Origin: a virus
IMG/VR virus record: IMGVR_UViG_3300043568_002015
Span: 1-62,080 of that record
Strand: one strand, 5' to 3'
DNA length: 62,080 bases
Below the pieces are notes generated by a model, which saw nothing but the letters and a program-made list of their open reading frames with translations, was not told the origin of the DNA and made no database searches. Made by a program: the position numbers and the translations under genes. Positions 7,108 through 56,034 of the stretch are shown here, piece after piece; within the stretch, counting starts at the first letter, position 1; the number at the start of each line of letters is the position of its first letter.

Positions 7108-8337
7108 TTAACTTTCATTATGCACCACCACACCGTTGGCAATGTAACGATCATTTCCTGCAACGTTCAACCAGAAAACCTGTTTGGACTTTACATTGAT
7201 GGTCGCGAGCTTTTCTATGGGTATGTATACTAATTCATTATTGACCCAGTGGGCCAGATTCAATCCTTCCCGCAGTGGAGTCAATGGTTTGAAATTATTG
7301 CTGGCCAATATCACCTGATACTGCACTGGCTCGGTCATCTGTAAATATTCAATATCATATACTGCCCATCCCTGATCAGTGAACACAGCATGATTACTGG
7401 TCATAAAATAATCACTGCCATTCATGCTGACTAACTCAACATCGCCAATCCTGGTGCGATTCCATATCACTGACACTACACCTGCATCGCTTCGCACCAG
7501 ATCACCCACTCTGACAGATGATATGGATTTTAATGTTCCGTCGGCCATGAGAACTTTAGTTGATCCAATAAAGCAACCAGCATCTCCGGCCCCGGCATCA
7601 CCGCTGCCAGCACCACTGTCACCACATGCCCCAGGATCGCAATCACTACCAATTCCATCGCCACCGCCAGAATCCCAGTATTCTTGCGGAGGCTCATATG
7701 GAGGGTCCGCTGGTGGTTGTGGCGGTGGTTGTGGCGGAATATATGGGGGTTGTGGTTGCTCTGGTTGTGGATCAGGAGATGGGCCAGGTCCTGGATCGTC
7801 AGCTGGTGGAGGTGGGTCTGGTGGAGGAACATAACCCTGCCCTCCGCCGCCACCACCTGCACCACCTGCAGCTACTACAATATTACTGCCTTCAACACTG
7901 ATGTATGTGGCTCCACCGCCACCGCCACCACCACCCGAATAACCAGATGCACCTGGATTTCCGCCAGCACCACCACCAGTATCGGCACCACCAAATCCAG
8001 GAAGTCCAGCGCCGATGCCAGTGCCAGTATATCCATCACCACCTCGTCCACCTATACCAATTTGAATTTGTTGATCAGCACCCAATGCCACGATGCCGGT
8101 TATTTTATGTCCGGATCTGCCTGTGTAGCCAGTCAGTCGGTCATTTCCACCATTACCGCCTCCGGCACCAATGGCAATCACAACAGCTGGCAGTTGCGGG
8201 GGCCAAAATTGTCGCCACTCCCCGTCGATTCTAGTCCATCCAGCTAAAATTTTAGTGGCAACACCATTGACTATGACGGCTGGTCGGCGCCACGGTCTCA
8301 ATCGCCCATCTTTTGCAATGAAAACGCCCCGTGCCAT
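7108..8337 (-). CDS. Gly- and Pro-rich adhesin with C-terminal intein-like (Hint) domain
   Basis: 409 residues. Residues 1-50 (MARGVFIAKDGRLRPWRRPA) are an anchoring domain. Residues 53-168 are glycine-rich with ATYISVEGSNIVVAAGG, like the Gly-rich domain of ALK-type proteins. Residues 170-218 are a stalk about half proline (PPPDPPPPADD). From C255 a Hint domain runs to the end: C255FIGSTKVLMADGT (block A), T313SNH316 (block B) and terminal VVVH406N407. Only Glu and Ser follow the Asn, so there is no Cys/Ser/Thr to accept a splice; bacterial intein-like domains of this kind usually cleave rather than splice. Self-cleavage or attachment through C255 is inferred. Neighbours are the fibre at 8341 and the oxygenase at 6061. 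Confidence 0.82.
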   Translation of the reverse strand: MARGVFIAKDGRLRPWRRPAVIVNGVATKILAGWTRIDGEWRQFWPPQLPAVVIAIGAGGGNGGNDRLTGYTGRSGHKITGIVALGADQQIQIGIGGRGGDGYTGTGIGAGLPGFGGADTGGGAGGNPGASGYSGGGGGGGGATYISVEGSNIVVAAGGAGGGGGGQGYVPPPDPPPPADDPGPGPSPDPQPEQPQPPYIPPQPPPQPPADPPYEPPQEYWDSGGGDGIGSDCDPGACGDSGAGSGDAGAGDAGCFIGSTKVLMADGTLKSISSVRVGDLVRSDAGVVSVIWNRTRIGDVELVSMNGSDYFMTSNHAVFTDQGWAVYDIEYLQMTEPVQYQVILASNNFKPLTPLREGLNLAHWVNNELVYIPIEKLATINVKSKQVFWLNVAGNDRYIANGVVVHNES

Positions 8338-10332: not shown

Positions 10333-11766
10333 TTAAAATTTCATTATAACGACTTCAATGGTCGCCAACTCGCCGTCTGGCACAGACGCCAGTGCATAAC
10401 CAATTACGCAACCAGGTTGATACAGCGATGGGTCCAAGCGTCCTGCTGTGCCTGGGGCAACTACTGCCAATCGATCACCTTTGGTTATTGGGCCCAGCAC
10501 ATTACATGGCACTCGTCCACTCAGTGCCAATGGCAACCCAGGCACTGCCGAATTCATTAAATATGCTGGATTTGATGATATAACACCAGCAACAGATGTA
10601 GTATGACTAGTCTGTGCCATCTGCAATTCTTCATCAATCAAATCTGATGCATTCCAACTGACCACTGTCCCTGGAGCATAGTTGTGAACAGAAGTATAGT
10701 TTTCTGCCAAGTCGGCGTATTTTGCTTGAATCGACACACCGTACACATTGTTCCACCATGCTGTTGTCGATCCCAGATTGTAGGTCAAGTTTGCACTGGG
10801 TGTGACATTGCTGGCTATATTGGTAAAACTGGCACCACCTGTACCTGAACTATATGTAGATCCGTTGGACCAAAATATCCCATTGGTGGTCATGAGATTA
10901 CCAACAGTGGTTTGTCCACTGACTGTTAATGTTGCCAATGTACCAATGCTGGTGATGTTGGTCTGGGCCGCTGTGCTTAATGTACCAGTCAATGTGGCAC
11001 TGGCATTACCAATAGTGCCTGCATTCACAGTACTTGCTATAATTGTACCTGAACTAGTAACTGCTCCAACCGCCAAACTGGTCAGGGCACCCACACTGGT
11101 GATATTAGGCTGGGCCGGTGTCAACAATGTACCGGCTACTTGTGTGAATGTGCCCTTGGTGGCACTGATGTTACCGGCAGTTATATTGCCAGTGACTGCC
11201 AGAGACGCCAATGCACCCACACTGGTGATATTGGTCTGTGCTGCTGTTGATAGCGTACCAGTTAATACAGCACTGGCATTACCAATGGTACCTGCATTGA
11301 CTGTTGTTGCTGTGACTGTGGTAAATCTACCAGTGGCATGCAATACGTTACCAATCACAGTGTTATTAATTGCAACAAACGATGCGGCATTATTGGACAC
11401 CAGATTGCCGTATAAATTAGCATTGCCGACAATAGTAACGTTTCCAGATATTACAGAGTTCCCGGTCACTGTTAAATTAGCCAGTGTACCTAGTCCAGTT
11501 ATATTGGGTTGGTAATCAGTAGTTATAGTGCCAGTCAATACCGTTCCGGTATTACCAATGGTAGCTGCTTGTATGGTGTTCGAACTTATGCCGCCGGAAG
11601 CATTAATTAACCCAGAAGCGACTATAGTAGTCGCACTGGACATATAATTTTTAAGTGCTGCTGCGGTGACTTTTCGTGTCAATCCGCTGTCTTCGCTGGC
11701 AAAAACAGTACTGTCACTGACGGTGGATAGGGTTACTAAATTCCCAATGGTTACATTGCTTGCCAT
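10333..11766 (-). CDS. Tail fibre protein sharing the YADLAE C-terminal domain
   Basis: 477 residues. The N-terminus MASNVTIGNLVTLSTVSDST with VFASEDSGLTRKVTAAALKN differs from the other fibres. The shaft is a series of loose repeats built on ATLTGTLSTAAQTNITSVG and INASGG/NAGTIGNAS motifs, which suggest a long beta-structured trimer. The C-terminal ~140 residues, starting YADLAENYTSVHNYAPGTVV and passing AYLMNSAVPG and GRVPCNVLGPITKGDRLAVV, are clearly paralogous to the end of the fibre at 3962-5635. A late-type octamer lies 22 bases upstream. Probably a receptor-binding or side fibre. Confidence 0.72.
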   Translation of the reverse strand: MASNVTIGNLVTLSTVSDSTVFASEDSGLTRKVTAAALKNYMSSATTIVASGLINASGGISSNTIQAATIGNTGTVLTGTITTDYQPNITGLGTLANLTVTGNSVISGNVTIVGNANLYGNLVSNNAASFVAINNTVIGNVLHATGRFTTVTATTVNAGTIGNASAVLTGTLSTAAQTNITSVGALASLAVTGNITAGNISATKGTFTQVAGTLLTPAQPNITSVGALTSLAVGAVTSSGTIIASTVNAGTIGNASATLTGTLSTAAQTNITSIGTLATLTVSGQTTVGNLMTTNGIFWSNGSTYSSGTGGASFTNIASNVTPSANLTYNLGSTTAWWNNVYGVSIQAKYADLAENYTSVHNYAPGTVVSWNASDLIDEELQMAQTSHTTSVAGVISSNPAYLMNSAVPGLPLALSGRVPCNVLGPITKGDRLAVVAPGTAGRLDPSLYQPGCVIGYALASVPDGELATIEVVIMKF

Positions 11767-54260: not shown

Positions 54261-54512
54261 ATGAGCAAAACACCTTACGAGATTCGTCTCGAACTCTTAA
54301 AGCTGGCTAAGGATTCACTCTATGATCCAGTATTCCAAAAACGACAAAATCTTATGGACGAATTTATGGCCAAACGAGAAGTCTTTGTTGGGATGACAGG
54401 TCCCACACCGGAACAATTGGCGTTGAAATTCCCTATTATGCCAGATTTTCCTAGTACGGATACTATTATTGCAGAAGCTGAAAAACTTAATAATTTTGTA
54501 AGTCAGCAATAA
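54261..54512 (+). CDS. Small conserved protein after major capsid gene
   Basis: 83 residues: MSKTPYEIRLELLKLAKDSL, then MDEFMAKREVFVGMTGPTPE and FPIMPDFPSTDTIIAEAEKL. Small helical proteins with this KTPYEIR start are common just after gp23 in aquatic T4-like phages, of unknown function. It stands alone between two terminators and has a good AAGGAG ribosome site, so it must have its own promoter; GCTAAATA near 54207 and TTTAAATA near 54226 are weak late-type matches. Confidence 0.75.
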   Translation: MSKTPYEIRLELLKLAKDSLYDPVFQKRQNLMDEFMAKREVFVGMTGPTPEQLALKFPIMPDFPSTDTIIAEAEKLNNFVSQQ

Positions 54513-54514
54513 TT

Positions 54515-54537
54515 AAAAGCCCCGTGAGGGGCTTTTT
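54515..54537. terminator. Bidirectional terminator between convergent genes
   Basis: AAAAGCCCC and GGGGCTTTT with a GTGA loop, with U runs in both directions. It serves the plus-strand gene ending at 54512 and the minus-strand gene ending at 54544. Confidence 0.92.
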
Positions 54538-54543
54538 GTTGAC

Positions 54544-55131
54544 TCAATCTTCTTCCTCCTCATCGTCGTTACCCCAGATTACATCATCAGATTCTTGCAC
54601 CAGTCGGTCCCATGCAGACTTATCATCATATGCACGATAATAATCTTCGTTCTCTTTGAGTACACGAAACTGTCCTGGATACTTCAGTCCAATTACGGTG
54701 CTATCGGCGGCACGTAGAATATCACACACAGTCCAGGTACTACCGCACCCGGCTGATATACGTTTGAAGGGGCTATGTTTAATGTCGTCTTCTTTGAGGT
54801 ATCTTTCGAATTCAAATCCACGAAATATAATACGAGTAATACCACGGTCTCGGTTATGCAGTCGGATTTTATCAAATTCGGTCAATGCTGTGATGGCTGC
54901 ACAATTGTCGTCATCAATCGTGAGTAGACACTCTTTGAGTTTAATACTGCCTTTGGTTCGGGTATTGTCTGGTGTTTCCTTGGTGCTCCAAGGCAGACTG
55001 CAAGATACGTGATGTACGTAATATGATTCACCTTTGCATTTTACCACCCACATGGGTATGGTTGCATCTTCCAGGTGTTTTTTATTGAAGTGAAAAACTA
55101 ATTCTTTACAAGCATATTCAATCTATTGCAT
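54544..55131 (-). CDS. Conserved phage protein with in-frame UAG at codon 3
   Basis: 195 residues if read from the ATG at 55131. That ATG has an AAAGGA site six bases upstream, but its third codon (55123-55125) is UAG. After it, 23 coding-like codons (IEYACKELVFHFNKKHLEDA) lead without a break into the open frame from the next ATG at 55053 (MWVVKCKGESYYVHHV), which has no good ribosome site. The rest includes PWSTKETPDNTRTKGSIKLK, CLLTIDDDNCAAI, FKRISAGCGSTWTVCDILRA and an acidic tail. I recall the family as a conserved uncharacterised protein of T4-like phages whose N-terminus contains the ACKxLVF-like part; that needs an alignment. Fifteen bases upstream ends a CUA tRNA from the same promoter. 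Function unknown. Confidence 0.72.
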
Positions 55132-55146
55132 TTTATTTCCTTTAAG

Positions 55147-55223
55147 TGGTGGCCCAATTGGGATTTGAACCCAAATCTTGACATTTAGAGTGTCCTGTTC
55201 TAACCATTAAAAACTATTAGGCC
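55147..55223 (-). tRNA. tRNA with CUA anticodon (amber suppressor)
   Basis: Acceptor GGCCTAA (5') pairs with TTGGGCC, discriminator A and encoded CCA at 55147-55149. D stem GTTT/GAAC, T stem TTGGG/CCCAA with loop TTCAAAT. Anticodon loop CTCTAAA places U33 before C-U-A (anticodon bases at 55188-55186) and A37, so it should read UAG. Weak points: the D loop is 10 bases and lacks A14, and the top pair of the anticodon stem is G-A. The short variable loop excludes Leu, Ser and Tyr types; the charged amino acid cannot be told. Confidence 0.82.
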
Positions 55224-55231
55224 ATGTATTT

Positions 55232-55259
55232 ATTATACAGTAAACACCCAGGAAGTCAA
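55232..55259 (-). promoter_or_regulatory. Sigma70-type promoter for the tRNA and downstream gene
   Basis: On the minus strand TTGACT (55259-55254), 16-base spacer, TATAAT (55237-55232). Transcription would start within a few bases of the tRNA 5' end at 55223. The -10 overlaps a late-type AATAAATA (55227-55234), so both early and late transcription are conceivable. Confidence 0.75.
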
Positions 55260-55341: not shown

Positions 55342-56034
55342 ATGGCAAGAGGTTTAAAAATTACACGCACAGAAACAGCAACAGGTCAGATTCATGATCG
55401 TTATGCAATGCAACAGTTAGTCAACGGATCACCCGTTGGTGGTACAGGTGGCCTAACCAGTCAGACTGGTAACCAAATTGCACCCAGAGTCAAAATTGGT
55501 GGTAATGCAGAAGCTGCTGGGTCTATTAGCACACAGAAAGGTTCCAAGAAATTTCGCGTAACTGATGGGACAAATACTGGGGTATGCACACTGGTTAATT
55601 TAGCTACACCAACAGCAGCCAGCACCATGAGTATTCGTGTTGACACTGCAACATTGACAGCAGGGACTGCCAATGCGTATGTGGCATCGGGCGCAAGTAC
55701 CAGTGCTTTTGTAACTGGTACATTTGCAGGTCCAGTGGCATTGGCAGTGGGGCAAGTGGTTTTAGGCACTGGCGCAACTGGCACAGTTACCATCACTGCG
55801 GTCAACACCACAAGTAACGTCACAGTGGGTTATACAAGTCAGACATTCGCCAACGTAGCTGGTGGTACTTTCTATACTACTGTTTATGCTAGCCGTATTT
55901 CCAACAAGTATGTTCGTGATTTTGGTAATAATGGCAATCCACAAGCTGGTACAATTGGTGGTTTTAACCCTAATGAATATCGTTATCACTTGGCAGAACC
56001 TGACAGCATATTCGTAAAAGTAGCTTACGCTTAA
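55342..56034 (+). CDS. Virion structural protein, possible decoration protein
   Basis: 230 residues: MARGLKITRTETATGQIHDR, then KGSKKFRVTDGTNTGVCTLV near residue 55, a Thr/Ala/Val-rich beta region, and a C-terminal SRISNKYVRDFGNNGNPQAG ending in YRYHLAEPDSIFVKVAYA. The KKFRVTDG...GVCTL feature is common in small structural proteins of aquatic T4-like phages. It stands alone with its own late-type promoter, leader hairpin, GGAGAA ribosome site and terminator, as expected of an abundant virion protein. Head decoration or tail component cannot be separated from sequence. Confidence 0.65.
   Translation: MARGLKITRTETATGQIHDRYAMQQLVNGSPVGGTGGLTSQTGNQIAPRVKIGGNAEAAGSISTQKGSKKFRVTDGTNTGVCTLVNLATPTAASTMSIRVDTATLTAGTANAYVASGASTSAFVTGTFAGPVALAVGQVVLGTGATGTVTITAVNTTSNVTVGYTSQTFANVAGGTFYTTVYASRISNKYVRDFGNNGNPQAGTIGGFNPNEYRYHLAEPDSIFVKVAYA

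Follow-up and report, generated by a model that had tools for sequence, protein, structure and literature searches.

The DNA considered here is a viral contig of 62,080 bases (IMG/VR record IMGVR_UViG_3300043568_002015, positions 1 to 62,080, hereafter called the window), in which a suppressor tRNA and a gene that we term geneX form a complete minus-strand cassette between plus-strand genes. The plus-strand gene on the downstream side of geneX occupies 54261-54512, and the one on the upstream side begins at 55342. In the direction of transcription, the unit opens with a putative sigma-70-like promoter (TTGACT-16-TATAAT, 55232-55259, minus strand like all the features of the unit), recognized by its match to 11 of the 12 consensus positions and located 8 bases before the tRNA. 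The tRNA itself (55147-55223) displays a CUA anticodon, an A73 discriminator base and an encoded CCA end. A cloverleaf had been reported at this place in an earlier note made from the letters of the window, and it is indeed the sole tRNA that ARAGORN calls there; the name 'Pyl' given by this program reflects the CUA anticodon alone. A ribosome binding site (AAAGGA, 55138-55143), whose spacing from Shine-Dalgarno (SD) sequence to ATG is conserved among homologues, precedes the start of geneX (54544-55131). The start reads ATG (55131-55129), CAA, TAG (55125-55123) and ATT GAA, after which the frame is open to a TGA at 54544, yielding 195 residues if the UAG is read. This third codon is the proposed gate. 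A predicted intrinsic terminator with a 9-pair stem and a T-rich tail (54515-54536) lies 8 bases past the stop codon. A scan of the window agrees with the earlier statement that no other gene is interrupted in this way. No near-identical GenBank-like phage was found for the window.

A protein search using the part of geneX downstream of its second ATG as the query returned 13 relatives, and a geneX profile search identified 327 relatives in viral contigs, 80 of which were fetched. No stop-codon condition was set in these searches, which provided an unbiased set of 91 loci and 66 distinct sequences. The early UAG seen in the window behind the ATG and its ribosome site, as the earlier note had described it, recurs throughout this set: 63 of the 66 distinct homologues carry it at codon 3, 4, 5 or 10 (44, 8, 9 and 2 sequences, respectively) and it is absent from the remaining 3. 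The leader ahead of the UAG thus varies from 2 to 9 codons, with the ATG in frame throughout. When the nearest in-frame stop before the conserved FHFNK motif was recorded for the 91 loci, it proved to be UAG in 86, UGA in 2 and UAA in 1, with none in 2; the distance from stop to motif is 10 codons in 82 of these loci and 11 codons in 5. The loci were also scanned for an SD sequence and ATG followed within 12 codons by a stop and then by at least 70 open codons. UAG was retrieved 91 times, 86 of them in geneX, and UGA and UAA 3 times each. On these comparisons, the early UAG of geneX is judged not to be due to chance.

The geneX protein is best conserved in the segment that runs from the UAG to the second ATG (IEYACKDVVFHFNKKHLED...). 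Over codons 4-26 (55054-55122 in the window), the differences per codon among 103 distinct sequences amount to 0.16, 0.11 and 0.46 at the first, second and third positions. The stretch from the UAG to the MWVV beginning at the second ATG is judged to be translated because the differences fall mainly at third codon positions, and the pattern indicates strong purifying selection. The protein-like character that had been attributed to this segment is thereby confirmed by the alignment. The geneX protein has no Pfam or PHROGs match and forms a family without a named function. Its AlphaFold model is good (pLDDT 89), with matches confined to phage proteins without known function; no significant PDB match was obtained by fold or by sequence, and assignment to the PTH2 peptidyl-tRNA hydrolases, which are considered below, was not supported. 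No homologues were found in bacterial genomes. Among cultured phages, Rhizobium phage RHph_I1_18 harbors a short geneX (MSEFM-UAG-NESCREVIFHFNK...) that is left unannotated in GenBank and has a CUA tRNA right behind it. At another locus (L079:4470), an endonuclease-like open reading frame (ORF), of the GIY-YIG type by eye, lies upstream of geneX and starts with MA-UAG-IEY, as the geneX leader does; it looks as though a gated geneX start was captured.

The tRNA is retained along with the gene. In 76 of the 91 geneX loci, a CUA tRNA is found at a distance of no more than about 6 kb, 72 being called by ARAGORN and 4 being added by Rfam as tRNAs with a CUA loop (L004, L026, L058 and L065). All 72 ARAGORN tRNAs lie on the geneX strand and 69 are upstream of geneX, often as the only tRNA, CUA being the commonest tRNA at these loci. 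In three further cases (L018, L049 and L090) a CUA tRNA is found elsewhere on the contig, outside the fetched stretch. Both the fold of the tRNA, examined with ARAGORN and Rfam, and its pairing with the gene in most relatives therefore uphold the cassette described in the earlier note. The relatives provide 81 distinct CUA tRNAs, 80 of them with an encoded CCA, and most combine A73 with a GCG-CGC acceptor end. A73 together with U35 would suit lysyl-tRNA synthetase. No clear parent emerged among the ordinary tRNAs closest to the CUA tRNAs, and a search with a degenerate anticodon-arm pattern was too noisy for use. Some geneX copies lack the UAG. One is that of L007, whose contig yields 37 tRNA matches with Rfam; almost all of them were typed, and none of these is CUA. 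In L013, L090 and Sinorhizobium phage Phosso, geneX has no UAG, yet an upstream PTH2-type gene has an early one. These exceptions fit gating, since either no CUA tRNA is present (L007) or the UAG sits upstream.

A second family of guarded genes consists of PTH2 and PTH2-like genes, and by sequence it can be assigned to PTH2 (PF01981). The Phosso gene encodes a PTH2 peptidyl-tRNA hydrolase (PF01981, E 3e-20) whose codon 4 is UAG; its deposited start lies later, and a CUA tRNA is found about 4.4 kb upstream. The PTH2 gene of Agrobacterium phage Atu_ph07 is interrupted in frame by UGA at codon 7, and the single suppressor tRNA of the phage has the anticodon UCA, which makes this phage, at the level of sequence, the sharpest test of whether stop codon and anticodon correspond. 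PTH2-like genes start with MAQ-UAG in Cronobacter phage GAP32, MTH-UAG in Serratia phage BF, MAH-UAG in Xanthomonas phage XbC2, MT-UAG in Acinetobacter phage ME3 and ML-UAG in Salmonella phage Arash, and a CUA tRNA is encoded on the same strand in all five. The Arash tRNA (L222:2810-2884) is annotated as tRNA-Phe; ARAGORN reads its anticodon as CUA. In Xanthomonas phage XacN1, ORF364 includes a PTH2 domain (25.3 bits, for a Pfam cut-off of 23), and a UAG occupies codon 3, immediately ahead of the start given in the annotation. The upstream UAG-bearing genes of L013 and L090 are PTH2-like, with a PF01981 match of E 4e-6 for L013. The PTH2-like profile matches PDB 24bt (4e-5); taken singly, the GAP32 and L090 proteins fall below the PF01981 cut-off. 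The GK of the xxGKxAAQxxH motif, whose lysine we take to be the catalytic lysine of PTH2, is kept in the Phosso and Atu_ph07 proteins, and an EQQxVQxxH-type sequence is found instead in the PTH2-like family, whose members may bind rather than cleave. Several geneX and PTH2-like genes are absent from GenBank annotation (MN988519.1 at about 11,000-11,250 and the H35-H42 records), apparently because of the early stop. Sinorhizobium phage phiM12, which also has a PTH2, carries a UUA-anticodon tRNA (L378:6315-6390) that is possibly an ochre suppressor.

The PTH2-like family profile gathered 51 loci, near-identical ones included, which were assigned to classes by reading of the loci: an early UAG interrupts the frame in 24 (in one of them after a GTG start), 12 carry instead a short leader ORF closed by a stop, and 15 show neither. 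The leader stop is UGA in L397, L432 and L433, beside UCA tRNAs, and UAG in the remaining leaders. A CCUCC sequence follows 12-39 bases past the leader stop in all 12 loci of this class, in which L412 is a duplicate of L409 and L433 of L432. Leader ORFs with a cognate stop and then CCUCC stand upstream of the PTH2-like gene in L406, L408, L409, L417, L421, L423, L429, L397 and L432. Upon folding of six leaders, the CCUCC arm was predicted to pair with the ribosome site of the next gene in several; four of the six lie well outside the range of their shuffled sequences (z -6.7, -4.2, -3.9 and -3.3). A leader ORF combined with a hairpin over the downstream SD sequence corresponds to what is expected of a leader-peptide translational attenuator, and these loci can be classified as such on their sequences. 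A gene without Pfam match, geneY, comes after some leaders and is fused to a PTH2-like domain in other loci.

Other elements were encountered on the same contigs. tmRNA genes, detected with the Rfam beta and permuted models, lie near geneX at L049:4721-5110, L026:6800-7268 and in L354, for which ARAGORN reports a tag peptide, and a GOLLD RNA (L008:7314-7776) is found within a tRNA-rich geneX locus. The protein encoded at 7108-8337 of the window shows, by eye, a C-terminal intein/hedgehog-like segment (CFIGSTKVLMADGTLKSISSVRVGD...VVHNES).

The mechanism that we propose can be briefly summarized as follows. From one promoter, the CUA suppressor tRNA and the message of geneX would be transcribed as one RNA. 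Ribosomes would initiate at the ATG at 55131 and reach the UAG at codon 3, where release factor 1 (RF1) would terminate translation after a dipeptide as long as no charged suppressor tRNA is available. With the charged tRNA, the UAG would be decoded and the 195-residue protein produced, a readthrough suggested by the conservation. PTH2 and PTH2-like genes would be guarded directly in the same way, by an early UAG or by UGA with a UCA tRNA. In the attenuator form, reading of the cognate stop of the leader would let the ribosome open the CCUCC hairpin that hides the SD sequence of the PTH2-like gene. As far as sequence can tell, the agreement of stop codon with anticodon extends over three families of guarded genes and holds for two stops, UAG and UGA. 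Gating itself is strongly backed by the comparison of genomes and considered highly probable, and a suppressor-tRNA-gated gene, which is the best explanation of geneX in full, is very probable. The switch presented in the earlier note, with full translation only when the tRNA reads UAG, is thus supported by the conserved UAG and the linked tRNA; its description as self-checking was not shown. The device also appears to be wider than had been seen, extending to peptidyl-tRNA hydrolase-type genes and to an attenuator form. A cognate suppressor tRNA is found in 30 of the 36 PTH2-like loci with an early stop or an attenuator and in 0 of the 15 others (Fisher p 2e-8, a value that overstates independence because the 51 loci include near-duplicates). 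A number of other observations weigh against this interpretation. Scans of whole phages for early stops also yield chance-like UAG cases, the distance from tRNA to gene reaches several kb at some loci, and two of the six folded attenuators are no better than shuffled sequences. Stenotrophomonas phage DLP5 has a CUA tRNA, and scans by homology, for early stops and for attenuators yielded no target for this DLP5/Summit tRNA. The hydrolase activity of the PTH2-like proteins is uncertain because the GK of PTH2 is absent, and the purpose of the gate is a guess since geneX has no known fold or function.

As to the purpose of the gate, the stop codon would act as a gauge of active suppressor tRNA relative to RF1, and the protein made from the guarded gene would handle the tRNA or the products of failed or suppressed termination, resulting in a homeostatic loop. 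This purpose is put forward tentatively because the guarded proteins are repeatedly of the PTH2 type, which handles peptidyl-tRNA; early peptidyl-tRNA drop-off and recycling by Pth are established (PMC10192219). Slightly more doubtful is the statement that these phages represent a natural class of tRNA-to-protein control circuits, in which the suppressor tRNA mainly switches on one guarded gene whose protein (PTH2-type or geneX) acts on suppressor tRNA or peptidyl-tRNA, in a closed termination-sensor loop operating during infection. The same gating could alternatively be a coherent feed-forward delay, serving solely timing and zero leak, with the identity of the guarded protein being incidental. 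Once the promoter fires, the tRNA would have to be transcribed, processed and charged before any protein appears. In favor of such a delay, tRNA and gene are adjacent and co-oriented, with one promoter and one terminator in the window, and a synthetic version of the same circuit, a suppressor-tRNA feed-forward 'leak dampener' that works with amber and opal codons, removes leak in E. coli (PMC7969014). The guarded proteins are nevertheless repeatedly PTH2-type or geneX rather than mixed toxic late genes, and tRNA and gene are kilobases apart in some phages. A timing or anti-leak gate is therefore seen as a possible purpose that ranks second, close behind the sensor loop. The leak dampener shares with the phage device a suppressor tRNA and a nonsense codon in the controlled gene; it is engineered, whereas in nature the device goes with certain protein families and is found also as a leader-peptide attenuator.

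The remaining explanations dispense with gating. A start at AUU or at another non-AUG codon right after the UAG, one of the alternatives listed in the earlier note, would turn the ATG-x-UAG into a decoy or minigene without any readthrough. The codon following the UAG is indeed ATT in 55 of 63 homologues, compared to 42% ATT among the other Ile codons of geneX. This start fails as an explanation because other codons are found there too (ATC, ATA and GTA, as well as AAC in a cultured phage) and because the spacing of the ribosome site suits the ATG, not an ATT; the ATG moreover remains in frame across leaders of 2-9 codons, and the linked suppressor tRNA and the UGA/UCA match would be left unexplained. 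We consider it very improbable. Reinitiation at the downstream ATG (codon 27 in the window) after termination at the UAG, producing a short protein of the GenBank style, has even less in its favor. Some genes of cultured relatives are annotated from downstream starts, and phrog_34073, built on the truncated form, covers the GAP32 protein in its C-terminal part only. Reinitiation would require neither the frame nor a matching tRNA and conflicts with the strong selection on codons 4-26; the homologues do not begin at MWVV, contrary to the start at 55053 that had also been suggested. Recoding of the whole genome, with UAG as a sense codon (code 15) and geneX as one instance, is the least likely of all. 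Phages that pair CUA suppressor tRNAs with numerous in-frame UAGs are known (PMC9523058, PMC10607447), but large genes of the window terminate in UAG and are backed by a second stop 2-7 codons further on; among the 661 genes called in the fetched geneX loci, 35 have UAG as their stop. UAG being a working stop and early UAG rare elsewhere, these phages were not classified as stop-codon-recoded; no in-frame UAG was seen in other conserved genes of geneX phages. As the earlier note proposed, the tRNA may serve mainly one gene, which is in keeping with UAG still terminating ordinary genes.

The suppressor-tRNA-gated gene shares features with several known systems. In code 15 phages (crAss-like and Lak phages), a phage-borne CUA suppressor tRNA reads UAG as it would in geneX phages; UAG is sense in many genes there, whereas in geneX-type phages it keeps its usual role as a stop, and in each phage a single gene has the cognate stop at its start. 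In translational attenuation of the erm/cat type, a leader ORF is followed by a hairpin hiding the next ribosome site. That attenuation is triggered by drug-induced stalling, whereas the phage leaders would respond to their own suppressor tRNA reading the stop or not. Translation factors are known to be autoregulated by their own decoding event, as in the frameshift at an early UGA for RF2 and the AUU start for IF3. A translation-related gene would likewise be controlled in the phages by a decoding step that its protein may influence; the phage device differs in acting through a dedicated tRNA.

No paper linking a suppressor tRNA to peptidyl-tRNA hydrolase control was found in the open-access literature. 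The suppressor tRNAs of XacN1, Atu_ph07 and Summit have been reported without identified targets (PMC5852040, PMC6102473, PMC9022506), and the XacN1 authors could find none for its CUA tRNAs (PMC5852040). Candidate targets are proposed here for XacN1 (ORF364) and Atu_ph07 (gp256), and none for Summit. Many large phages would thus combine a suppressor tRNA with a gene beginning with the cognate stop, located beside the tRNA or elsewhere, which gives such tRNAs a job. A search rule follows, namely to look for the cognate stop before the annotated start or at a leader ORF. A systematic annotation error is exposed as well, by which GenBank genes are truncated at their N-terminus or missed entirely. 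The control principle suggested by these phages is that of a dedicated phage tRNA whose reading of a stop codon acts as an on-switch.
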